From: a candidate division Zixibacteria bacterium SM23_81
GTDB lineage: Bacteria; SM23-81
Length of the DNA stretch: 64,000 bases
Assembly (NCBI GenBank): GCA_001304015.1
Contig: LJUY01000003.1
Location: forward strand, 1 to 64,000
Direction: 5' to 3'
Below are positions 5,776 to 22,616 of this stretch, in pieces. Below the pieces are notes generated by a model, which did not search any database, had not been told where the DNA came from, and worked only from the letters and a program-made list of their open reading frames with translations. The translations under genes and the position numbers were made by a program. The stretch's first letter is position 1, and each line of letters begins with the position of its first letter.

Positions 5776-8700
5776 GTGACCAAACAGATTATCGATGGTC
5801 AATACGTGATATCGCGAAAGTTAGGCTCGGGAGCCACTGGCGTGGTGTATAAGGCTCACTTGATCGGAGATGAACATCCGGTGGCTTTAAAAATCTTGAG
5901 TGCTGGCTATGCTGATGATAAAGCTCAGAACCTGCGGGATGAGTTCCAGCTGCTCAGCCAACTCGACCACCCGCATATCGTCAAGATACAAAGTTTTGGA
6001 CTGACCGCCAAGAAGCAACCCTATTTCGTCATGGAATATGTAGATGGACCTCCGCTGGACAAATCCGTTCTGGAGCAAATTTCTTCACAAGATTTTTTCT
6101 CCATTCTAGTGGACATATGCCTTGCTTTGGATTATATCCACGATTACGGGCTTGTCCACCAGGATGTGAAGCCCACAAATATTCTCCTCCAATCACGCCC
6201 CGAGGGCCCGCCAATGGCCAAACTTGGTGACTTTGGTCTGGCCACTACCAGGGTTGCCACAGGTGGAGTTCAATTGTCGGGTACTTTAGAATATTTTGCA
6301 CCGGAGATGATTCGCGGAGGGGTCATCGACCGACGTGCAGATCTCTACTCCCTTGGCGTAACACTTTACGAAGTGCTGACTGGTCAGAATCCCTTTCGAG
6401 CCAAAGATCTTCATGAAGTTTTGCGCAATCATCTGGAAAAGATACCAACTCCTCCTCGGGAATACAACAAGAAAATTTCCAAGGTTCTCGAGAGTATAGT
6501 CCTTAAGCTTTTAGAAAAGGATCCCCTGGACCGATTTTCCACTGCCTCGGCCATCATCGGAACGCTGCGCCGAAAGGCCGGTTACAAGCTTTCCAACGAT
6601 CAGGAACGAGCTGGAGTTATCCTGCCGCCGGGCCAATTCGTGGGCCGCGAGTCCGAGATGTCGCGCTTGAAAATGTGGCATAGGGAAGCGCTGACCGGAA
6701 AAGCTCGTCTCGTTTTCGTGGAGGGGGAATACGGTGTAGGCAAATCTCGGCTATTGAAAGAGTTTGCCATAAGCTGTCAGTTGAAGGGAACAGCGGTTTT
6801 TGGGGAAAATTGGAAGGGCGGGGAGATTTCAAATCTGAGTAGCTTCGCTGAGGGGCTGTCCGCAGCATGGGGTCCTTCGGAATGGAAAAGGGCTTCAAAA
6901 TCAGATCAGGAGGAGATGCCCCTGTCTCCCCAGATATCTGGGGAGACAGGGGAAACAGAGTACCAAGTTTGGGAACAGATCTGTCGCCGGATCAGTCAGT
7001 TTTCGAAATCCCTTCTCTTCATCATCGAGGATCTTGAAACGAGCGATCCGGCTGTCTTGTCCTTTCTCAAGTACCTTTTGGATCGTCTTTCCTGGTATCC
7101 CGTTATGATCTGTGCAAGTTATCAGGCCTCTCTGGTCGATCCCGAGAGAAAATCGCTGCTGCAATCGCTTCACAGGAGAAAGAAAGAATCCTCCGTTCGC
7201 AGTTTAAAGCTCCGACCACTGTCAAAGGCGGCTATGGCGAAACTGGTTCTTGCTCGATTCAAATTGCTGGCTGGAGAGGAGAAGCTCATAGACTACCTTT
7301 CTCGACAATCAAGGGGCAATCCATGGTATTTGGAGGAATACATCGCCGCTATGCGGGCTCAAAAGGTCCTGGTACCCTCTCCTGAAGGTTGGGCTCTGGC
7401 CGATGACCGACTGTCGCAGATCAAGTTACCCCGGGCCGTTGAGGATATCAACGAGGCGGTCATCACAGGCATGAACAGTTCAGTCAAGAAGTTCTTATCC
7501 GTCGCCTCCGTCATCGGCGATCAATTTCGACTTGAGGAACTCAGATGGGTGTTGCCTTTTACAGAAAAAGAGTTTTATGTCTCACTAGGAAAAGCATTAA
7601 AAAGCGGTTACTTAGTCAGAGAACCAGCGGTCAGGGGTCAAGGGCACGTTTACACTTTCGCTAAAATGGGCCTGAGAGAGCGCCTCTGCCAGTCTGTTGC
7701 CCCCAAAACGCGAAAGGGAATTCATCGGAATGTAGCTGTTCACATGGAAAAGGAGTCCCCGCCTAACAGAGATCTCACGAAATTGGCCGACCATTTTCAC
7801 CGGGCAGGGCAGTATTCCAAGTCTGCTTTATACTCTCTGAAAGCTGCCGCAAAAGCTAAAACCACAGCTCAGTTAGAGGAAGCGCATCGGCTCCTTCGGC
7901 AATCGCTGCAAGCCAGGGAGGCTATCGGTGAGACCGGCAAATTGATGCCCATCCTGGAAGCTTTAGGAGATTCCTGTTCGCTGAAGGGAACCTACAAAGA
8001 AGGCCTCCAGTACTATGACCGGGCTCTCAGTCAGTTGGCTCGACCTGGCTCCAAATCTTTTCTGGAGCTCCAGCGGAAAAAAGCGATCCTGTTTCGAAAA
8101 CAAAGCCAGTTCGGCAAAGCTTTGAAAGTTCTTGATGAAGCTCTGGCTCAAGCAAGCGGCTTAGGTTTGAGCCTCTCTCGGGCGCGAATATTAGCCGAGA
8201 TCGGATGGATCAAGAGGATGAAATCCGATTACGACGGCGCTCTAGCGGCCTTAACGGAGTCGCTGAAGCTTCTCCGCTGGGGGCGGGATCGCGCGGAAAC
8301 GGCCCAAGTGACCAATAGGTTGGGTACTGTGTCCTGGACCTTAGGCCGATATCAAGAGGCACAGGCCTATTATGAAAGGGCTCTCAAGATATTCCAGGAG
8401 CTGGGGGAGCGGGACAGAATAGCGGCCCTTCTGGATAATTTGGGCTTGACTCACCTGAACCAAGGCCAAATTGAGCGGGCCATAGAGTATTTTCAGGAAA
8501 GCCATCATATCCGAAAGACGGCGGCCGATGTCCTGGGCGAGGCCAAGGTCTGCCATAATCTGGCTATGGCTTACGCCGAGAACGGTGAGTGGGATCAAGC
8601 CTTAGAATTTTATCTCCAGAGTTATAGGCTCAAGGTTCGCATAGGAGACCTCGAGGGGTTGGCACTGACCCTCAACAATATGGGCATTCTGCATATGCAC

Positions 8701-10923
8701 CGGGGTATGTGGGATGAAGCGAAACGCCATCAGCAACAGGCTTTGAGGTTAAGAGAGCGGCTGAATAACAAGTATGGCCTATGTGGTTCTTATGACAACC
8801 TGGGCGATTTGGCCAGAATACGGGGAAACTGGAAATTGGCCCTGGGATATTATCAAAAATCACAGAGACTTAGGGAAGAGATTAAAGATGAGGCCGGAGG
8901 CTGTATTTCCCGTTTTAATTTGGGCCTTTTGGACATGGAGCGGGGCCAGCATCGAAAAGCTGAGCATGGTCTTTTGGCTAGTCGCGACTGCCTGCAGAGG
9001 ATTGGAGATGAGGTGGGGGTCGTGCAGGTGGATTTGTCCTTGGCCGGGTTCTATCTTAGCCAAGGTCAATTGGATCGAGCCGAGGAGCTGGGAAATCGAT
9101 CTCTGACTAAAGCTTCGGAGGCGGGAAATTTGTTTCTGAAGGCCAGGGCTGCTAGAACTGTGGCCGCTGTTGAGGCCCTTTCGGGAAAGGAGGCCCGCTC
9201 CAGCGAGCTCTTTGGGCAGAGCATCGAGATCCTCAAAAAGCTTCAAGCACGCTATGAATTGGCCAAGACATTTTTTATTCTGGGAGTCACCAAGCAGGGA
9301 AGAGGCCAGGTTCGGGAAGCCATCCGGTACTACAAGGAATCCTTAATGATTTTCCAGAAATTGGGGGTGAAACATTTTATGTCCAGAATAGAGAAACAAC
9401 TGGAGAGTTTACAAAGCACTCTGGAACGCCATGAGAGTGCCGAGCTGTTCACCCTCTACACCATGAGCGAGATTCTCAACTCCATGCGCGATTTGGACCT
9501 TCTCTTAGAGAAAGTTCTAGATTTGGCCATTGAGATGTTACATGCCGAGAGAGGGGCGATCATTTTTTATGACCTGCCGGAAGATGATTTTCAAATCAAA
9601 ACCGCCCGTAGCATGGAAAAGCAGACCTTATCGGATGCCCTGGAGATTAGTCGCAGCATTGTAAAGAGTGTAACTCAGAAGGGAAAACCGGTGGTCGTCG
9701 ACAATGCATTGCAGGATGAGCAGTTCAGCAATTGGCAGAGCGTTACCATGTACAATATCATGTCTATTCTCTGCGTTCCCCTGAAGATAAAGGGCACGGT
9801 CATCGGCACCATTTATCTGGATAATCGGAGCGTTCCTGGCATCTTTTCCTCCAGAGACGTTTCCTTTTTGGAATCTTTCTCTAACCTGACAGCCATGGCT
9901 ATTGAAAATGCCAAATTGTACACCGAGCTTCATGGCGAGAACGTATACCTGAAAAGTGAGTTGGATACTAGATACAAGTACGAGAACATCGTCGGAAACA
10001 GCCAGGTGATGCAGGACATCTTCAACGTTATCGAACGAGTGTCGCCGAGCAGGGCCAGCGTTCTGATCCTGGGTGAAAGCGGCACCGGCAAGGAACTCGT
10101 GGCCAGGCTGATACATTATTCCAGCCCACGAAATGAAAAGTCCTTTTTAAAGGTAAACTGCGCCGCTCTGACAGAGAGTTTGTTGGAAACGGAACTTTTC
10201 GGCATCGAGGAAAAGATCGCCACCGGGGTCAAGAGCCGTAAGGGCAAATTCGAATTAGCACATGGTGGTACCATCTTCCTGGACGAAATCGGCGACATGA
10301 GCCTCTCGACCCAGGCCAAGGTCCTTCGGGTTCTTCAGGAGCAAGAGTTCGAAAGAGTCGGGGGAAGCGAGACCATAAAGGTGGATGTGAGAATCATCTC
10401 CGCGACCAATCAGGATCTTCAGAAGTCCATTGCCGAAAAGAAATTCAGAAAGGATCTCTTTTACAGGCTGGATACTGTGACCATCAGCATTCCTCCTCTC
10501 CGAGAACGCAGGGAGGACATACCGTTTCTGGTTGACTTTTTTGTGAAGAAGTACTGCCTCGAGAATGAAAAAGAGGAGATCGTCGTGCCGGCCGAGGCCT
10601 TGGAAGCCTTCATGAAATACGATTGGCCCGGAAACGTCAGAGAGCTGGAGAATGTCGTTCAGCGTGGCGTGGTTATGGCCGAAGGCAAATTGTTCCCCAT
10701 AGAATTTGTCCCAGCCGTCGTGGAAGGGGAAGGTCAGGAGTTAATCTTCAGTGTTCCGGCTAACCGGAGAACGCTGGATGACATTCTTGGATTTATCGAA
10801 CGGGCAGCTGTAGAAAAGGCACTACGAGAACACGGCTTCGTTCAGGTGAGAGCTGCCAAGGCTCTGGGGCTCAGCGAGAGCGTCCTGCGGTACAAAATGC
10901 GGAAGTACGGAATTAAAAAATGA
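5776..10923 (+). CDS. Giant Ser/Thr kinase-AAA-TPR-GAF-sigma54 activator fusion
   Basis: A 1715-residue cytoplasmic signalling protein. Residues 1-275 are a Ser/Thr kinase (GSGATG loop, HQDVKPTN catalytic loop near 128, DFG near 152). About 285-690 is an AAA_16/STAND-type ATPase with Walker A GEYGVGKS near 315. About 690-1215 are tandem TPR repeats. About 1220-1390 is a GAF domain. About 1400-1640 is a sigma54-type AAA+ module (GESGTGKE near 1434, FLDEIGD Walker B). The last 35 residues are a Fis-type HTH. The loop that normally reads GAFTGA is EEKIATGV here (near 1476-1484), so sigma54 contact is uncertain. The start is GTG with GAGG upstream. A 34-bp palindrome lies in the ATPase part. Confidence 0.9.
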   Translation: MTKQIIDGQYVISRKLGSGATGVVYKAHLIGDEHPVALKILSAGYADDKAQNLRDEFQLLSQLDHPHIVKIQSFGLTAKKQPYFVMEYVDGPPLDKSVLEQISSQDFFSILVDICLALDYIHDYGLVHQDVKPTNILLQSRPEGPPMAKLGDFGLATTRVATGGVQLSGTLEYFAPEMIRGGVIDRRADLYSLGVTLYEVLTGQNPFRAKDLHEVLRNHLEKIPTPPREYNKKISKVLESIVLKLLEKDPLDRFSTASAIIGTLRRKAGYKLSNDQERAGVILPPGQFVGRESEMSRLKMWHREALTGKARLVFVEGEYGVGKSRLLKEFAISCQLKGTAVFGENWKGGEISNLSSFAEGLSAAWGPSEWKRASKSDQEEMPLSPQISGETGETEYQVWEQICRRISQFSKSLLFIIEDLETSDPAVLSFLKYLLDRLSWYPVMICASYQASLVDPERKSLLQSLHRRKKESSVRSLKLRPLSKAAMAKLVLARFKLLAGEEKLIDYLSRQSRGNPWYLEEYIAAMRAQKVLVPSPEGWALADDRLSQIKLPRAVEDINEAVITGMNSSVKKFLSVASVIGDQFRLEELRWVLPFTEKEFYVSLGKALKSGYLVREPAVRGQGHVYTFAKMGLRERLCQSVAPKTRKGIHRNVAVHMEKESPPNRDLTKLADHFHRAGQYSKSALYSLKAAAKAKTTAQLEEAHRLLRQSLQAREAIGETGKLMPILEALGDSCSLKGTYKEGLQYYDRALSQLARPGSKSFLELQRKKAILFRKQSQFGKALKVLDEALAQASGLGLSLSRARILAEIGWIKRMKSDYDGALAALTESLKLLRWGRDRAETAQVTNRLGTVSWTLGRYQEAQAYYERALKIFQELGERDRIAALLDNLGLTHLNQGQIERAIEYFQESHHIRKTAADVLGEAKVCHNLAMAYAENGEWDQALEFYLQSYRLKVRIGDLEGLALTLNNMGILHMHRGMWDEAKRHQQQALRLRERLNNKYGLCGSYDNLGDLARIRGNWKLALGYYQKSQRLREEIKDEAGGCISRFNLGLLDMERGQHRKAEHGLLASRDCLQRIGDEVGVVQVDLSLAGFYLSQGQLDRAEELGNRSLTKASEAGNLFLKARAARTVAAVEALSGKEARSSELFGQSIEILKKLQARYELAKTFFILGVTKQGRGQVREAIRYYKESLMIFQKLGVKHFMSRIEKQLESLQSTLERHESAELFTLYTMSEILNSMRDLDLLLEKVLDLAIEMLHAERGAIIFYDLPEDDFQIKTARSMEKQTLSDALEISRSIVKSVTQKGKPVVVDNALQDEQFSNWQSVTMYNIMSILCVPLKIKGTVIGTIYLDNRSVPGIFSSRDVSFLESFSNLTAMAIENAKLYTELHGENVYLKSELDTRYKYENIVGNSQVMQDIFNVIERVSPSRASVLILGESGTGKELVARLIHYSSPRNEKSFLKVNCAALTESLLETELFGIEEKIATGVKSRKGKFELAHGGTIFLDEIGDMSLSTQAKVLRVLQEQEFERVGGSETIKVDVRIISATNQDLQKSIAEKKFRKDLFYRLDTVTISIPPLRERREDIPFLVDFFVKKYCLENEKEEIVVPAEALEAFMKYDWPGNVRELENVVQRGVVMAEGKLFPIEFVPAVVEGEGQELIFSVPANRRTLDDILGFIERAAVEKALREHGFVQVRAAKALGLSESVLRYKMRKYGIKK
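6919..6952. repeat. 34-bp perfect palindrome inside the kinase-fusion gene
   Basis: Each half begins CCCCTGTCTCCCCAGAT, and the two halves are exact reverse complements with no spacer. It encodes about residues 382-393 in frame, between Walker A and Walker B of the AAA_16-like domain. It is too long and perfect to be an ordinary by-product of codon use. Confidence 0.9.
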
Positions 10924-16005: not shown

Positions 16006-16728
16006 ATGTACGGTATCTCCTTGAATGTAGCGTGTTCGAGATCCACGATGGTTGGGATGTATAGGCTGGCTGAAAGGGCCAGCCAGGCATTTGCTAATGT
16101 GTTGATCGTGGGCGAAAGCGGTGTGGGTAAAGAGCATCTCGCCCGACAAATTCACCGATTCAGAGATCCCGAGGAGAAAGGATTCAGGGTATATCGCTTT
16201 TACTCCTCACAGACGGACTTAAACGAAATACGTAAGCTTCTTTTCCGGGATCTTTACAGGTTGAACGATCAGGGACCAGTAACTCTGTTCCTGAAATCGG
16301 TAGAAAGAATCGGTGATAAAGCTCAGCTTCAGCTATTAGAGCTGTTAGAGGAAGAAAAGATTGCCGCACTGTTGGAGAGGACCCCGAGTATCCGTAAACC
16401 AAGATTGATATGCTCATCTGAGGGAAATGGTGAAAAGGAAAATGGGGGGCAGGGTATTCATCCGAGCCTTGCTTATAATTTAGATGTCATTCGCATAGAA
16501 ATTCCCCCTCTGCGAGAGAGGACATCAGAAATCCTTCCCCTAGCTGATCTATTTCTCCAGGAGTTTAAGGTCAAGTATCGAAAAAAGCTCTCGGGGTTCT
16601 CTCCGGCTGTGCGCAACAGACTGGTCGATTATCCTTGGCCTGGTAATGTGAGGGAGCTGCGCAACGCCGTTGAGGGAGCGGTAATGTTAGCCAAGGACGA
16701 TGTCATTCAAGAGGTATCTTTAAAATAA
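16006..16728 (+). CDS. Degenerate sigma54-activator-like AAA+ protein
   Basis: A 240-residue protein clearly derived from the AAA+ domain of NtrC-type activators, but with catalytic parts lost. Walker A is intact (GESGVGKE, residues 36-43). The GAFTGA loop is missing. The Walker B segment reads VTLFLKSVERIG (92-103) where active proteins have FLDEIG. The arginine-finger segment DLYYRLN is replaced by SLAYNLD. Sensor-I Asn is replaced (LICSSEG). The sensor-II region is kept (YPWPGNVREL, about 209-218). There is no receiver domain and no HTH. It probably binds but does not hydrolyse ATP and may modulate a real activator such as the regulator at 20.3 kb. Pseudogenisation is the alternative, but the frame is intact. 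Confidence 0.75.
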   Translation: MYGISLNVACSRSTMVGMYRLAERASQAFANVLIVGESGVGKEHLARQIHRFRDPEEKGFRVYRFYSSQTDLNEIRKLLFRDLYRLNDQGPVTLFLKSVERIGDKAQLQLLELLEEEKIAALLERTPSIRKPRLICSSEGNGEKENGGQGIHPSLAYNLDVIRIEIPPLRERTSEILPLADLFLQEFKVKYRKKLSGFSPAVRNRLVDYPWPGNVRELRNAVEGAVMLAKDDVIQEVSLK

Positions 16729-16840: not shown

Positions 16841-16869
16841 TTGACAAAAAATGGTTAACGTCCTATATT
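16841..16869 (+). promoter_or_regulatory. Sigma70-type promoter with long downstream leader
   Basis: TTGACA (16841-16846) and TATATT (16864-16869) are 17 bp apart. Predicted start is near 16876, about 370 nt before the HD-GYP gene. Confidence 0.75.
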
Positions 16870-16875
16870 CAGCCC

Positions 16876-17249
16876 CCAAGAGGAGGGATGCCGATATAGA
16901 GGACTCATAAGCCGGCGGCAGGTGTAATTAAGTGAGGACGTTATCGCCAGCTTTTGGGTTTCAAAATAGAAAGCCAATAAGGCTAAAAAAAAGACCGGCA
17001 TCTGCAAGTCTTACCGAAGCGAAGCGGTATCGACCCGAGCGGAGCGTTTGCCTGGTACCTAAAAAATACCAGAGCTTTTGCTGAGAGGGGGGGTTGGTAC
17101 TGATGCTGCTAAATATTATTATTTTCGTTGGCCAGCTTATTGAGCAAGTGGCCGCCAAAGGTGGTTGGTAAGAAGTGAAGAGATGTCGGTCTTTTTAAAT
17201 CTCTTTCCAGAGACCATAGGCGTGAGTTAGAAGGAGGATTAATTATAGA
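16876..17249 (+). other. Long structured leader or non-coding RNA upstream of the HD-GYP gene
   Basis: The leader contains several possible helices: GATGCCG (16888-16894) with CGGCATC (16996-17002), TACCG (17012-17016) with CGGTA (17025-17029), and CTGGTA (17052-17057) with TACCAG (17067-17072). I compared it by eye with GEMM c-di-GMP riboswitch, tmRNA and RNase P signatures and saw no match. It also contains a 22-codon frame at 17103. Its function is unknown. Confidence 0.45.
17103..17171 (+). CDS. Possible 22-residue peptide in the leader
   Basis: The ATG at 17103 opens a frame for a hydrophobic peptide beginning MLLNIIIFVGQ and ending AAKGGW. A purine-rich GAGAGGGGGGG lies about 10 nt upstream. 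It could be a leader peptide or a small signalling peptide sensed by the following membrane proteins, or a chance frame. There is no homology evidence. Confidence 0.3.
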   Translation: MLLNIIIFVGQLIEQVAAKGGW

Positions 17250-18623
17250 ATGAAGATCTCGCGACGGGCTTCTTCATTGCCACTTTTATCGTGGATATTT
17301 ATTGTGCTGGTGGTGAGTGGTGCCATCATTATGCTTGGCTATCTGATTCGCGACTTGATTCGCGATGGGTGGACAATAAACTGGTGGGATCTCATCATAT
17401 GGGCATTCTTGGTCATTATCGCCGAGAAATTTGTGATTAGCTTACCTCGCGGCGGAGCTTTTGTTACAGTAGGTGCAGCTGTAGATTTTGCGATCATCGT
17501 TTTGTTTGGTCCTGCCATTGCGGCACTATTCGGTTTGTTGGGAGCTCTAGTGAATTCTTGGCTCGCGCGGAAAGTACCCTTTTATAAGTTATTGTTTAAT
17601 ATGGGACAGTATGTTCTAACATTGGGTACTGCAGCTATAGTCTTTAGAGCCTTGGGGGGTGACATTTCGGATTCAGGGATCGGTTCTTCTATATTGCCTT
17701 TTTTGGTATGTGTACCTGTATATTTTTTCGTGAATAATGCTTTGATTTGCTTAATTATTGCATTTACAGAAAAAATTTCGCCAATAAGAGTGTGGCTTGT
17801 AAACTTTCGTTGGACAGTTGGACATGATCTGATTTTGGCTCCACTCGGACTAGTTGTTGCTTTATTATACAAAGTATCAATTTGGTCGATTTTTGTTTTT
17901 TTGGCGCCCTTAGCCTTAGCAAGATATGTATATAAATTGTATATGGACCTACGAGGTGCCTATTTTGACTCGATAGCTGCCTTAGCCTCAGCACTGGATG
18001 CCAGTGATCCATATACCAAAGGCCATTCCGATAGGGTCACTAAGTACGCTGTGCAGACTGCCAGGGCCATGAAATCGAGTGAGAGAGAAATAGAGACTAT
18101 TGAATTTGCGGGTCGGCTGCATGACATTGGCAAAATCGGAATAGACAGAAGCATCTTGCGAAAGAGAAGCAAGCTCAATGATCGTGAGTGGTCTGAGATG
18201 CAGAAACACCCCGTGATGGGCTCGGAAATTGCTGGGAAATTGAAATTCATGAAAGAAGCCGAGGACTACGTTAATTACCATCACGAACGATATGATGGTA
18301 AAGGATACCCAAAGGGCCTCAAAGGAGAGGAAATCCCAGTTGGAGCGCGTATTCTTGGAGTCGTGGATGCTTTTGATGCTATGACATCGGACCGTCCATA
18401 TCGACCGGCCCTCGCAATAGAGGAAGCTGTTAGGGAATTGGAAAGAGGTGCCGGGCAGCAGTTTGATCCAATTGTTGTCGATGTTTTTGTTAAACTAATA
18501 CGTAACGGGGAATTGAAAGTCGAAGGTCACAAAGTTAAAGAACCGGAGCCCAAACCGCAACAGAATTCCAAACAAGAATTGGACCTAAAGCCAGTGAAAC
18601 GAACTCCGCAATTTTCCAAATAG
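17250..18623 (+). CDS. HD-GYP domain protein with multi-pass membrane sensor
   Basis: A 457-residue inner-membrane protein predicted to hydrolyse cyclic di-GMP. Residues 1-220 form about seven transmembrane segments with FGPAIAALFGLLGAL (86-100) and ARKVPFYKLLFN (106-117). Residues 230-420 are an HD-GYP domain: HDIGK with His291-Asp292, HHERYDGKGYP with GYP at 352-354, and DAFDAMTSDRPYRPA. All hallmark residues are present, so it should be active. The C-terminal 40 residues are Lys/Glu/Pro-rich. AAGGAGG lies 12 nt upstream of the ATG, rather far. The membrane domain is homologous to that of the histidine kinase at 18.8 kb. Its ligand is unknown. Confidence 0.88.
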   Translation: MKISRRASSLPLLSWIFIVLVVSGAIIMLGYLIRDLIRDGWTINWWDLIIWAFLVIIAEKFVISLPRGGAFVTVGAAVDFAIIVLFGPAIAALFGLLGALVNSWLARKVPFYKLLFNMGQYVLTLGTAAIVFRALGGDISDSGIGSSILPFLVCVPVYFFVNNALICLIIAFTEKISPIRVWLVNFRWTVGHDLILAPLGLVVALLYKVSIWSIFVFLAPLALARYVYKLYMDLRGAYFDSIAALASALDASDPYTKGHSDRVTKYAVQTARAMKSSEREIETIEFAGRLHDIGKIGIDRSILRKRSKLNDREWSEMQKHPVMGSEIAGKLKFMKEAEDYVNYHHERYDGKGYPKGLKGEEIPVGARILGVVDAFDAMTSDRPYRPALAIEEAVRELERGAGQQFDPIVVDVFVKLIRNGELKVEGHKVKEPEPKPQQNSKQELDLKPVKRTPQFSK

Positions 18624-18807
18624 ACATTTTAGAATCCGGCCTCGCTCTCAGCCTTGCATGATTGTAACTATAACAGAAGCATTGACCCAACCAACATATA
18701 CCGTTGCTGCTCGCTAGCGATTTTGTAGTTCCTCGTGAAGAAATCTGCAATTATTCCTTTTTGATAAGCTATAACACGCTAAACGTAATCTGAGTCAGAA
18801 TTATAAT

Positions 18808-20259
18808 ATGCAAAGGCGTTTCTCAGATCTTCCCAGGACTTGTCGACTCTATATTATTGGTATATGTATTTTGGCAGCAGTGTTTTTTATATATGCAATA
18901 TTAAGATTTCAGTTTGCTAGCTATATACATATTACCTCTAGGGAGCTTTTATTTTGGGCATTTGCAGTAATTCTCTCAGAGTCTTTGGTAGTGTATCTGC
19001 CGTTAACTGGTTGTTTATCAATTGGTACCGCGATAGACATCCCAATTATCCTGATGTTTGGGCCAACCCTCGCGGCAGTTTATGGAATTCTAGGAGCGTT
19101 GTCCTCATCTCTGGTTATTAGAAAGGTCCCCTTTTATCGGCTCTTTTTTAATGTAGCCCTGTTTATCCTTACTATGGGAATTTCATCTTGGGTATATCAA
19201 GGCCTTGCCCAAGGAATAAACTTTGTGGAAGCCCCTCAACTAATCGCTGTCTTTCTTCTAACTATCCTTGTCTATTTTGGATTAAATAGTGGTCTTTTAA
19301 GTGTTGTGATCGCATTAAGTGAGGACCTATCACCTAGAACCGTCTGGATGAAAAATCACTCGTGGACTATAGGTTATTTATTTGTCTTGGCAGCCATCGG
19401 CTACCTAATGGTTATGGTCAATTATGCGCTCGGAAAGTGGGCAATCGTTGTGCTGCTCTTACCTGTTTTGCTAACGCGAAAGGTATATGGCCAATACATG
19501 GATTTAAAAAAAATGCAGGACCAGCTTATTCAATCAGAAAGGCTTGCCGCAGTGGGTCAGATGGCTGCTGGCATCTCCCATGAGATCGATAATCCCATCA
19601 GCGTGATCATGGGTTACAGCGATTATCTTCTTAAAAAAACGCCATCCAGTGATTCGAGAATAGAGGATATTAAAGTTATTAGAAAGGAAGCTGAGCGGTG
19701 CAAAGCGACTACTCGAGAATTTCTTGATTTCTCAAAACCAAAGGTGCAGGTCGAAACTATCAGTATCAATCTCGCAATTAGAAATGCCATTTCCCTCCTG
19801 CGGCATGAGCGAGCATCCCGGAGCATCAAAATTATCTTCGAAGAAGATCATACACTGCCAGACATTAAGGGAGATCTCAAAAAGCTGGAGCAGGTTTTTG
19901 TTAACATAATGCTTAATGCCTTTCAGGCCATGCCAACGGGAGGGAGCCTGAGAATTTCCACGAGTGTGGCAGAGAATCCTCACCGGCACGAGAAAGCATT
20001 TTTTTCAAGAATATGGAGTAACGAGAGTAAAGATGATGTTGTTAAGGTAGAGTTTGAGGATACGGGTTGTGGTATTACGAAAGAAAATCTGAAGCGGGTG
20101 TTCACACCATTTTTTACCACAAGATCTCAGGAGGGTGGTCGGGGATTGGGTCTTTTTGTTAGTCATCAGATTATTCAAGAGCATGGTGGCAGTTTTGAGA
20201 TTAAAAGTGACTCAGGAAGAGGGACGTCAGTTGCCGTTACATTGCCGTTTAAACAGTAA
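18808..20259 (+). CDS. Sensor histidine kinase sharing the HD-GYP protein's membrane domain
   Basis: A 483-residue membrane histidine kinase. Residues 1-225 repeat the architecture of the neighbouring HD-GYP protein: WAFAVILSESLVVYLP, FGPTLAAVYGILGAL (84-98) and IRKVPFYRLFFN (104-115). HisKA follows with phospho-accepting His258 in ISHEIDNP, then HATPase_c with an N box (NIMLNAFQAM), DTGCGI and GRGLGLF. No PAS or GAF domain intervenes, so the membrane domain should be the sensor. Stop codon and the response regulator start are 17 bp apart, a classic two-component pair. The start at 18808 lacks a clear ribosome site. Codon use is visibly AT-richer than that of flanking housekeeping genes. Confidence 0.9.
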   Translation: MQRRFSDLPRTCRLYIIGICILAAVFFIYAILRFQFASYIHITSRELLFWAFAVILSESLVVYLPLTGCLSIGTAIDIPIILMFGPTLAAVYGILGALSSSLVIRKVPFYRLFFNVALFILTMGISSWVYQGLAQGINFVEAPQLIAVFLLTILVYFGLNSGLLSVVIALSEDLSPRTVWMKNHSWTIGYLFVLAAIGYLMVMVNYALGKWAIVVLLLPVLLTRKVYGQYMDLKKMQDQLIQSERLAAVGQMAAGISHEIDNPISVIMGYSDYLLKKTPSSDSRIEDIKVIRKEAERCKATTREFLDFSKPKVQVETISINLAIRNAISLLRHERASRSIKIIFEEDHTLPDIKGDLKKLEQVFVNIMLNAFQAMPTGGSLRISTSVAENPHRHEKAFFSRIWSNESKDDVVKVEFEDTGCGITKENLKRVFTPFFTTRSQEGGRGLGLFVSHQIIQEHGGSFEIKSDSGRGTSVAVTLPFKQ

Positions 20260-20276: not shown

Positions 20277-21698
20277 TTGAGTATTGTGGACACTTTAGAA
20301 GGTAGAAATCTGCTGGTCGTTGATGATGAAGAAAACATGCGTCAACTCATTAACAAAGTTATGAGTGAACAAGGATATCGAGTAGATCTTCTTGAGAATG
20401 GTGAAAAGACAATTCAGCTGGTAGCTAAAGAGCCGAAAAGTTATGATATTGTCATGTTGGATATACGATTACCAGGTAAGGATGGAATTGAAGTTTTAAG
20501 GGAAATCCGGGAAATCAATCCAGAGATCGCGGTGATTATGATGACCGCCTATGAATCTTTAGAGACAGCAATTCAAGCGATTAGGGAAGGGGCATACGAT
20601 TATTTAATAAAGCCAGTGGGAGTGGACGAGCTTATTATTTCTGTGGAAAGGGCTCTGGAGAGAAAGCTGCTTCGCTTAGAGAATAAATATCTGAGGAAAG
20701 AAATCGGGAATCGGTACTTCTTTACCAACATTATTGGCAAAAGCGATAAGATGCAAGAAGTTTATCGAACTATAGAAAGTGTCTTAAATAGTCCAGCACC
20801 GGTATTACTAGAAGGAGAAAGTGGTACCGGTAAAGAGTTAATTGCAAGGGCAATTCATTATAACGGCTGGAGAAAGGCGAAAAAGTTCGTCGCTGTAGAC
20901 TGCGGAGCTCTTCCAGAAAACCTCATCGAGAGTGAGCTCTTCGGTCATAAAAAAGGAGCCTTTACCGGAGCGACGCGAGATAAAATAGGATTATTTGAGG
21001 AAGCGAATCATGGTGCCATTTTCCTAGATGAAATCTGCAATATCAATTCCAGCACACAGGCTAAGCTCTTACGAGTTTTGCAGGAAGGTGAGATAAAAAG
21101 AGTAGGTGAGGTTCGATACCGAAAAGTTGACGTGAGGATTATATCAGCGACAAATAAAAATCTGAAGGAAGAGGTTAAGAAAGGGAGATTTCGTGACGAC
21201 CTCTACTATAGGTTGAACGTCATACATATTAAGCTTCCTCTTCTGCTTGAACGCAAGGAAGATATTCCACTTCTCGCCGACTATTTCCTAAGAACTTATA
21301 GCCAAAAAGTAGGGAAGCAGGTAGGAAGGATCGAAGATGACGTTATGGATCTTCTGATCAACTACTCATGGCCTGGCAATGTGCGTCAACTAGAAAACGA
21401 GATAAAAAAGATGGTCACTTTTGTGCGCTCAGGGACAAATGTAACTCTGGATTATGTGTCCGAGGAGATCCTAAATGTAAACCAAATGTTGAAGATTGGT
21501 CAAATGGAGGGAGGAAATTCTTTAAAACTTAAAGTAGCAAATTTAGAAAAACAGCTTATCCTTCAAGAGCTAAAGTCAAATAGATGGAATAAAAGTAAGA
21601 CGGCAACGGCCCTGGGCTTAAGTCGGAAGGGATTGGATAAAAAGATTCTCAGATATGGTCTGGATCGGCGAATAAAGCAAGGAAAGAGAAAAAGCTAA
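20277..21698 (+). CDS. NtrC-family sigma54-dependent response regulator
   Basis: A 473-residue response regulator with three domains. The receiver (about 8-125) has DD at 16-17, phospho-accepting Asp62 in MLDIRLPG and the conserved lysine in LIKPVG. The AAA+ domain (about 150-385) has GESGTGKE, an intact GAFTGA loop, FLDEI and arginine finger YYRLN, so it should activate sigma54 polymerase. The Fis-type HTH is at the C terminus (NKSKTATALGLSRKGLDKKI). The start is TTG with AAGGAG 4 nt upstream; a GTG at 20286 is an alternative. It is the partner of the preceding kinase. Sigma54-type sites at 21917 and 15598 are plausible targets. Confidence 0.92.
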   Translation: MSIVDTLEGRNLLVVDDEENMRQLINKVMSEQGYRVDLLENGEKTIQLVAKEPKSYDIVMLDIRLPGKDGIEVLREIREINPEIAVIMMTAYESLETAIQAIREGAYDYLIKPVGVDELIISVERALERKLLRLENKYLRKEIGNRYFFTNIIGKSDKMQEVYRTIESVLNSPAPVLLEGESGTGKELIARAIHYNGWRKAKKFVAVDCGALPENLIESELFGHKKGAFTGATRDKIGLFEEANHGAIFLDEICNINSSTQAKLLRVLQEGEIKRVGEVRYRKVDVRIISATNKNLKEEVKKGRFRDDLYYRLNVIHIKLPLLLERKEDIPLLADYFLRTYSQKVGKQVGRIEDDVMDLLINYSWPGNVRQLENEIKKMVTFVRSGTNVTLDYVSEEILNVNQMLKIGQMEGGNSLKLKVANLEKQLILQELKSNRWNKSKTATALGLSRKGLDKKILRYGLDRRIKQGKRKS

Positions 21699-21871: not shown

Positions 21872-21912
21872 AGAAGAGGGCCATTTACGCTTTCCGTAGA
21901 TGGCCCTCTTCT
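21872..21912 (+). terminator. Long perfect hairpin downstream of the regulator gene
   Basis: AGAAGAGGGCCATTTACG (21872-21889) pairs with CGTAGATGGCCCTCTTCT (21895-21912), 18 bp with one G-U pair, around the loop CTTTC. It is followed by TATTTT. It probably ends the two-component transcript and isolates the sigma54 promoter that begins five bases later. Confidence 0.65.
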
Positions 21913-21916
21913 ATTT

Positions 21917-21931
21917 TGGCACAGACATTGC
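21917..21931 (+). promoter_or_regulatory. Sigma54 (-24/-12) promoter before ssb
   Basis: TGGCAC-AGACA-TTGC matches the consensus at every conserved position (GG 21918-21919, GC 21930-21931). Predicted start is near 21943, leaving a leader of about 66 nt. A dyad at 21801 could be the enhancer. Confidence 0.65.
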
Positions 21932-22008: not shown

Positions 22009-22404
22009 ATGGCTGAGCTTAAATTGCCCCGGCTGAATCGTGTCTATTTGGTGGGAAGATTGACTAAAGATCCCGAGGTTAAGCAAACCCAAACTGGCAA
22101 GTCGGTTCTTAATGCACGGATGGCTGTCAATCATCCCTATCGAGATGGAGAGGGAAATTGGCAGGAAGAGGTAACTTATATCGACGTGGTCGCCTGGCAA
22201 AGGCTAGCTGAGCTTTGTGGTGAATATCTTAGCAAAGGGAGTCCAGTGCTTGTAGAAGGTCGATTGCGGACTCGATCCTGGGAGACCAATAAAGGGGAGA
22301 GTCGGAGCGTCATCGAGATCAGAGCGGATCGCGTCCAATTTCTTGATAAAATCGGGACGAGTAAACAGGATATAGAGCTTGAAACTATTGAACAGGAGGG
22401 ATAA
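22009..22404 (+). CDS. ssb: Single-stranded DNA-binding protein without acidic C-terminal tip
   Basis: A 131-residue OB-fold SSB. The core is normal (LNRVYLVGRLTKDPEVKQT, then YIDVVAWQRLAELCGEYL and GSPVLVEGRLRTRSWE). The protein ends DIELETIEQEG soon after the OB fold. The usual Gly/Pro/Gln-rich linker and the DDDIPF-like tip that recruits replication and repair proteins are missing. B. subtilis SsbB, a competence-specific paralogue, is short in the same way. Together with the sigma54 promoter upstream, this suggests a specialised SSB rather than the main one, which should be elsewhere. GAGAGGAG lies just upstream of the ATG. No rpsF/rpsR neighbours are present. Confidence 0.9.
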   Translation: MAELKLPRLNRVYLVGRLTKDPEVKQTQTGKSVLNARMAVNHPYRDGEGNWQEEVTYIDVVAWQRLAELCGEYLSKGSPVLVEGRLRTRSWETNKGESRSVIEIRADRVQFLDKIGTSKQDIELETIEQEG

Positions 22405-22586: not shown

Positions 22587-22616
22587 AACCACCTGGATAA
22601 ACCGGGTGGTTTTTTA
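22587..22616 (+). terminator. Rho-independent terminator
   Basis: AACCACC (22587-22593) pairs with GGTGGTT (22605-22611), with an inner GG/CC, followed by T. It ends the ssb unit. Its arms match those of the terminator at 24201. Confidence 0.8.

Follow-up and report, generated by a model that had tools for sequence, protein, structure and literature searches.

Organization of the locus

The window analyzed here is a stretch of 64,000 nucleotides from the Zixibacteria bacterium SM23_81 (contig LJUY01000003.1), in which three signaling genes follow one another on the forward strand. The first (17250 to 18623) encodes a 457-aa cyclic di-GMP (c-di-GMP) phosphodiesterase with an N-terminal MASE9 membrane domain (aa 1 to 235, 17250 to 17954) and an HD-GYP output domain (HD_5, E = 7e-42), in which a motif check found both the metal and the substrate motifs (HDIGK at residue 291 and HHERYDGKGYP at residue 344). 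After a gap of 184 bp comes a 483-aa sensor kinase gene (18808 to 20259), whose product carries a second MASE9 domain at its N terminus (aa 1 to 235, 18808 to 19512), followed by Pfam HisKA and HATPase_c domains with the motifs HEIDNP, NIMLNA, DTGCG, FTPFFTT, and GRGLGL all intact. An NtrC-type response regulator (20277 to 21698; TTG start as called) begins 18 bp after the kinase stop codon and is composed of a receiver, a sigma-54 AAA+ domain, and a Fis-type HTH by Pfam and motifs; its receiver Asp region, GESGTGKE, and GAFTGA are preserved, and it is probably the partner of the MASE9 kinase. The open reading frames agree with the coordinates that a first-pass annotation had given for the HD-GYP and kinase genes and with its placement of the regulator directly 3' of the kinase.

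A sigma-70-like promoter (TTGACA-17-TATATT, 11 of 12 positions in a consensus scan) is predicted upstream of the HD-GYP gene at 16841 to 16869 on the same strand. Between it and the gene lies a leader of ~370 nt (16876 to 17249), present once in the genome, that folds better than 100 of 100 shuffles (z = -3.4). It could be a new structured leader RNA; known RNA elements were ruled out, as Rfam gave no match at gathering or relaxed thresholds. Farther upstream, at 16006 to 16728, is a 240-aa remnant of a sigma-54 activator that retains the AAA+ core and Walker A and has no GAFTGA, receiver, or HTH; judged from its sequence, it is unlikely to work as a normal activator.

Downstream of the regulator gene, a dyad search found a perfect hairpin, GAAGAGGGCCAT...ATGGCCCTCTTC, followed by TATTTT (21873 to 21911, forward strand), which probably marks the end of the kinase-NtrC unit. 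It is followed at 21917 to 21931 by a sigma-54 -24/-12 core, TGGCACAGACATTGC, the sole exact match within the window, where shuffles predict 0.15. The core lies on the forward strand 78 bp upstream of an ssb gene (22009 to 22404; TIGR00621, 136 bits against a cut-off of 54), the second in the genome alongside the one at G000:C80 (G000 denotes the window genome); a terminator-like hairpin follows the window copy (22587 to 22611). This one motif and its position point to ssb as the probable target of the NtrC-type regulator. Across the genome there are nine sigma-54 consensus sites versus 5 for a reversed-pattern control, so that enrichment is not clear. Two of the nine sites, both perfect, lie at most about 200 bp 3' of other NtrC-type genes and on the same strand, at G000:C32 (L083) and G000:C92 (L084). 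A gene comes directly after each, so that the order of NtrC, site, and gene repeats that of the window and control of the next gene looks like a local habit.

The window also encodes a 1,715-aa protein (5776 to 10923) with an N-terminal Ser/Thr kinase domain, a C-terminal part resembling NifA and other sigma-54 activators and, by eye, TPR-like repeats between the two. IEEKIATGV seems to take the place of GAFTGA, so the protein may act without sigma-54. Another surveyed genome (G002) has many open frames of ~930 to 1,030 aa whose C-terminal part is related to this protein.

The two membrane domains are sister MASE9 copies

BLASTP aligned residues 3 to 235 of the HD-GYP protein with residues 1 to 234 of the kinase at 38% identity and 62% positives (E = 5e-46, calculated for one pairwise comparison over ~235 aa), and no significant alignment was found between the two proteins outside their N-terminal regions. 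Homology of the membrane domains, together with the intact HD-GYP, kinase, and NtrC motifs, upholds the earlier proposal of one sensor domain attached to two different outputs. The accompanying suggestion that the domain belongs to no named MASE family and could be an undescribed module had to be abandoned: the HD-GYP copy is a MASE9 domain (PF20972), scoring 30.3 bits over residues 26 to 227 against a gathering score of 24.3 bits. A MASE9-HD-GYP protein from a related metagenome-assembled genome (MAG), 41% identical in the MASE9 domain, scores 34.4 bits. The kinase copy gave no match to the Pfam model at E ≤ 1 and would be nameless from Pfam alone; we count it as MASE9 because of its 38% identity to the HD-GYP copy and its position in the tree.

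A phylogeny of 60 MASE9-like domains groups the two window copies as sisters (support of 99/94), a pairing recovered in 200 of 200 bootstrap trees; the branch leading to the kinase copy is the longer one (1.33 versus 0.60). No close copy of the kinase's MASE9 domain was found among the relatives, and a kinase-type copy was not found in a genome of the same family or in two of the same phylum, all drafts in which loss or gaps are possible. This absence fits a duplication within the SM23_81 lineage.

MASE9 outputs across genomes

Searching 386 sampled genomes with a nine-sequence profile, the survey of outputs and neighbors that the first-pass annotation had called for, yielded 61 MASE9-like proteins in 51 genomes; 36 of these proteins match Pfam MASE9 at E ≤ 0.001. 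MASE9 homologs exist in thermophiles as well (Thermotoga or Thermus). By Pfam, the N-terminal MASE9 domain is combined in these relatives with several signaling outputs, most commonly HD-GYP (43) and less often histidine kinase (8), GGDEF (6), MCP (2), SpoIIE (2), or sigma-54 activator (1). Such variety suggests that pairing one sensor with many outputs is a habit of MASE9, as it is of other MASE domains. Galperin and Chou are said to have surveyed HD-GYP proteins.

Adjacent MASE9 genes with different outputs occurred only in SM23_81 among the surveyed genomes. A single-protein genome scan for the pair elsewhere came back empty, and a second scan yielded just two loci, both encoding MASE9-HD-GYP and both in related MAGs; with no second adjacent pair in these scans, a conserved pairing of MASE9-HD-GYP and MASE9-kinase genes was rejected. 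Two genomes, G197 and G328, carry MASE9 on an HD-GYP protein and on a kinase, encoded on separate contigs, and their kinase copies branch elsewhere in the tree than the window kinase copy. A third, G138, has two adjacent HD-GYP genes, the second with a weaker MASE9-like match.

A GAF-GGDEF protein of the window genome carries a third, more distant domain of the MASE9 type (G000:C76:30461-31066; L015 3451-5265), which places MASE9-class sensors on c-di-GMP breakdown, on c-di-GMP synthesis, and on a kinase in one genome. This protein is kept in a second genome of the same family, again near what by eye appear to be hslUV genes. G197 and G328 (L099 and L100) also encode apparently stand-alone MASE9-like domains of ~230 to 240 aa that have no output domain and recall stand-alone S components.

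Predicted fold and profile relationships

AlphaFold2 models of both copies, built from a four-sequence alignment, reached moderate confidence (pLDDT of 73.6 for the HD-GYP copy and 66.8 for the kinase copy). The first 24 Foldseek matches in the PDB to the HD-GYP copy were all S components of ECF transporters. On realignment with VIA-align, S components made up the first 23 matches (Z of 8.0 to 14.5), followed by an unrelated chain at 5.8; the best were NikM (Z = 14.5 over 193 residues at 3.5 Å) and RibU (Z = 13.8). For the kinase copy, the first 21 matches were again S components (Z of 9.8 to 13.0), and the next chain scored 7.4. NikM, RibU, FolT, ThiT, and BioY were thus matched ahead of the rest of the PDB, with weak best Foldseek E values of 0.003 and 0.13. 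A sequence-based search of solved structures gave no match.

Since helical bundles can reach high Z scores through a shared arrangement, the likeness was tested separately with sequence profiles of MASE9 (60 sequences), S components (26), and the 5TMR-LYT receptor domain (14), compared by hhalign against column shuffles that keep hydropathy. MASE9 scored 29.5 against S components, where the maxima of two shuffle sets were 17.2 and 18.0 (0 of 100 and 0 of 60 reached the real score), and 33.2 against 5TMR-LYT, its best profile match (shuffle maximum of 15.8, 0 of 60). The hhalign probabilities are modest, at 22 to 57%, and the positive control, 5TMR-LYT against S components, scored 58.8. A MASE1 profile gave no signal with MASE9, S components, or 5TMR-LYT; its score of 19.1 lies within the shuffle range (maximum of 19.8; 1 of 60 shuffles equaled or exceeded the score), and a relationship between MASE9 and MASE1 was rejected. 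The GP motif of MASE9 (FGPAIAALFG) aligns on that of the relatives, a register that agrees with the predicted S-component fold.

Models and profiles support a MASE9 architecture of eight predicted helices, in which one helix leads into an S-component fold and an exit helix comes after it. One could instead suppose that MASE9 is a ligand-free bundle for membrane anchoring or dimerization that resembles S components through a common helical arrangement, given that no ligand is known for MASE9 and that confidence in the models is moderate. We regard this as quite improbable: S components head both structure searches, well separated from the next matches, the profile scores exceed every hydropathy-preserving shuffle, and polar residues inside the helices are strongly conserved.

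An S-like core predicted to be inverted

In the 60 sequences, the mean number of Lys plus Arg residues is high at the N terminus (1.07), in L1 (1.47), L3 (3.22), and L5 (2.12), and at the C-terminal end (2.38), and low in L0 (0.73), L2 (0.03), L4 (0.83), and L6 (0.35). In the HD-GYP copy, L3 reads ARKVPFYK. Because the catalytic domain is necessarily inside, these charges indicate eight helices with both N and C termini inside. The first-pass annotation was right that the two proteins share a homologous membrane region; its count of about seven helices gives way to eight, favored by the model and by the loop charges of the relatives.

The same charges run opposite to those of the related families. 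In aligned loops, MASE9 and 5TMR-LYT average 2.93 and 0.00 in L3, 0.73 and 3.29 in L4, and 2.10 and 0.21 in L5, respectively; in S components, the positive residues cluster in the loop that follows helix 4 and at the C terminus. The S-like core of MASE9 is therefore predicted, from sequence, to sit in the membrane the opposite way up from that of S components and 5TMR-LYT, which would place the face formed by L1, L3, and L5 in the cytoplasm and allow ligand access from the cytoplasm or the membrane. An S fold oriented as usual, with residues 213 to 228 not crossing the membrane and an extracellular nutrient bound as pyruvate is by BtsS, would accord with the outside binding of S components and 5TMR-LYT (PMC11109136) and with a kinase model that shows no break before the last helix. 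We consider it unlikely, given that the positive charges of the MASE9 sequences sit in the opposite loops and that, by eye, 213 to 228 is strongly hydrophobic in the aligned sequences. Taken as a whole, MASE9 may be an upside-down relative of the S components that bind vitamins and metals, one more branch of receptors with their fold, which reads a cytoplasmic or membrane ligand and relays it to the breakdown and the synthesis of c-di-GMP and to two-component control. We hold this picture tentatively, at slightly less than even odds.

Conserved residues and a model for shared signaling

The polar residues most strongly conserved across the family are N117 (54 of 60 sequences) and N162 (49 of 60), along with Y158, Arg/Lys108, and Lys/Arg113. 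Of these, N117 and both basic residues map to the end of helix 4 nearest L3. The face on which they lie, predicted to be cytoplasmic in MASE9, is the counterpart of the S-component substrate side. Both window copies retain the five residues or replace them conservatively. This is compatible with a shared signal, and the two copies likely bind the same ligand; none of the genes adjoining the pair identifies it.

Paralogous domains might also have diverged toward different ligands and be neighbors simply through duplication, with no co-regulation by one signal. The copies are only 38% identical, the kinase copy is the faster evolving and deviates at Y207, Q120, and G137, positions that the family tends to keep, and 184 bp separate the genes. 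Set against these points is the retention, or conservative replacement, of N117, N162, Y158, K108, and K/R113 in both copies, and we judge divergence to be on the doubtful side, although a serious possibility.

We favor an explanation, at a probability of roughly 0.65, in which a duplicated MASE9 domain with an inverted S-like core passes one ligand signal both to the HD-GYP enzyme and to a kinase-NtrC-ssb route. A MASE9 membrane sensor would have been duplicated in this lineage, with one copy feeding the HD-GYP phosphodiesterase and the other an NtrB-like kinase. A small ligand would occupy a pocket on the face formed by L1, L3, and L5, at which helix 4 starts with a conserved basic-x4-basic-x2-Phe-Asn motif; ligand binding would move the exit helix, which may extend as a coil into the dimer of the HD-GYP or kinase protein. 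c-di-GMP hydrolysis would be altered through the first copy; through the second, the kinase would phosphorylate NtrC, which with sigma-54 at 21917 would direct expression of the second single-strand DNA-binding protein.

Many bacterial families carry MASE9 on enzymes that act on c-di-GMP, and what the domain senses is not stated in the literature found. Its placement among S components would give this orphan sensor a predicted pocket, candidate ligand types (vitamins, metals, and small acids), and testable residues. The inverted topology, if true, would make MASE9 a notable example of a receptor fold turned over in the membrane. Within a single organism, the twin genes offer a natural test of whether one signal jointly drives a second messenger and sigma-54 transcription.

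Comparison with known systems

MASE9 is already known as a Pfam family, and the S-component fold is known in 5TMR-LYT receptors: Partipilo and Slotboom described it in 5TMR-LYT receptor kinases and noted it for MreD, in a paper whose main text makes no mention of MASE or HD-GYP (PMC11109136). New here are the match of both MASE9 models to S components and the profile link of MASE9 to S components and 5TMR-LYT. Our search found no discussion of the MASE9 domain and nothing linking HD-GYP with ECF transporters; most subscription papers and the Pfam clan notes lay outside it, and we claim no priority.

MASE1 (PF05231) is a multi-helix sensor module common to kinases and c-di-GMP enzymes, and it differs from MASE9 in standing apart, at the profile level, from the S-component group. 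As in MASE9 at large, the window HD-GYP protein has a multi-helix membrane domain, above the gathering score, before its output; the locus differs in that its kinase copy falls below Pfam detection and in having adjacent copies with different outputs. With ECF S components (PF12822; NikM/CbiM, RibU, FolT, ThiT, and BioY), the window copies share the predicted six-helix fold and the register of H1 to H4, with the GP motif likewise placed between H2 and H3. They differ in having extra helices at both ends and an inverted charge pattern, and both are fused to catalytic output domains rather than being stand-alone membrane proteins serving an ECF module. The EcfT-docking AxxxA motif is missing from helix 1 of both copies and occurs in 13 of 60 MASE9 sequences versus 13 of 26 S components. 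The 5TMR-LYT domain (PF07694; LytS, BtsS, and YpdA), whose profile matched nothing in either window protein at E ≤ 1, likewise combines an S-type core and an extra N-terminal helix with varied cytoplasmic outputs (PMC11109136). It has seven helices, with the N terminus and L1, L3, and L5 outside, whereas MASE9, judged from its opposite loop charges, is predicted to have eight helices, with the N terminus and those loops inside.
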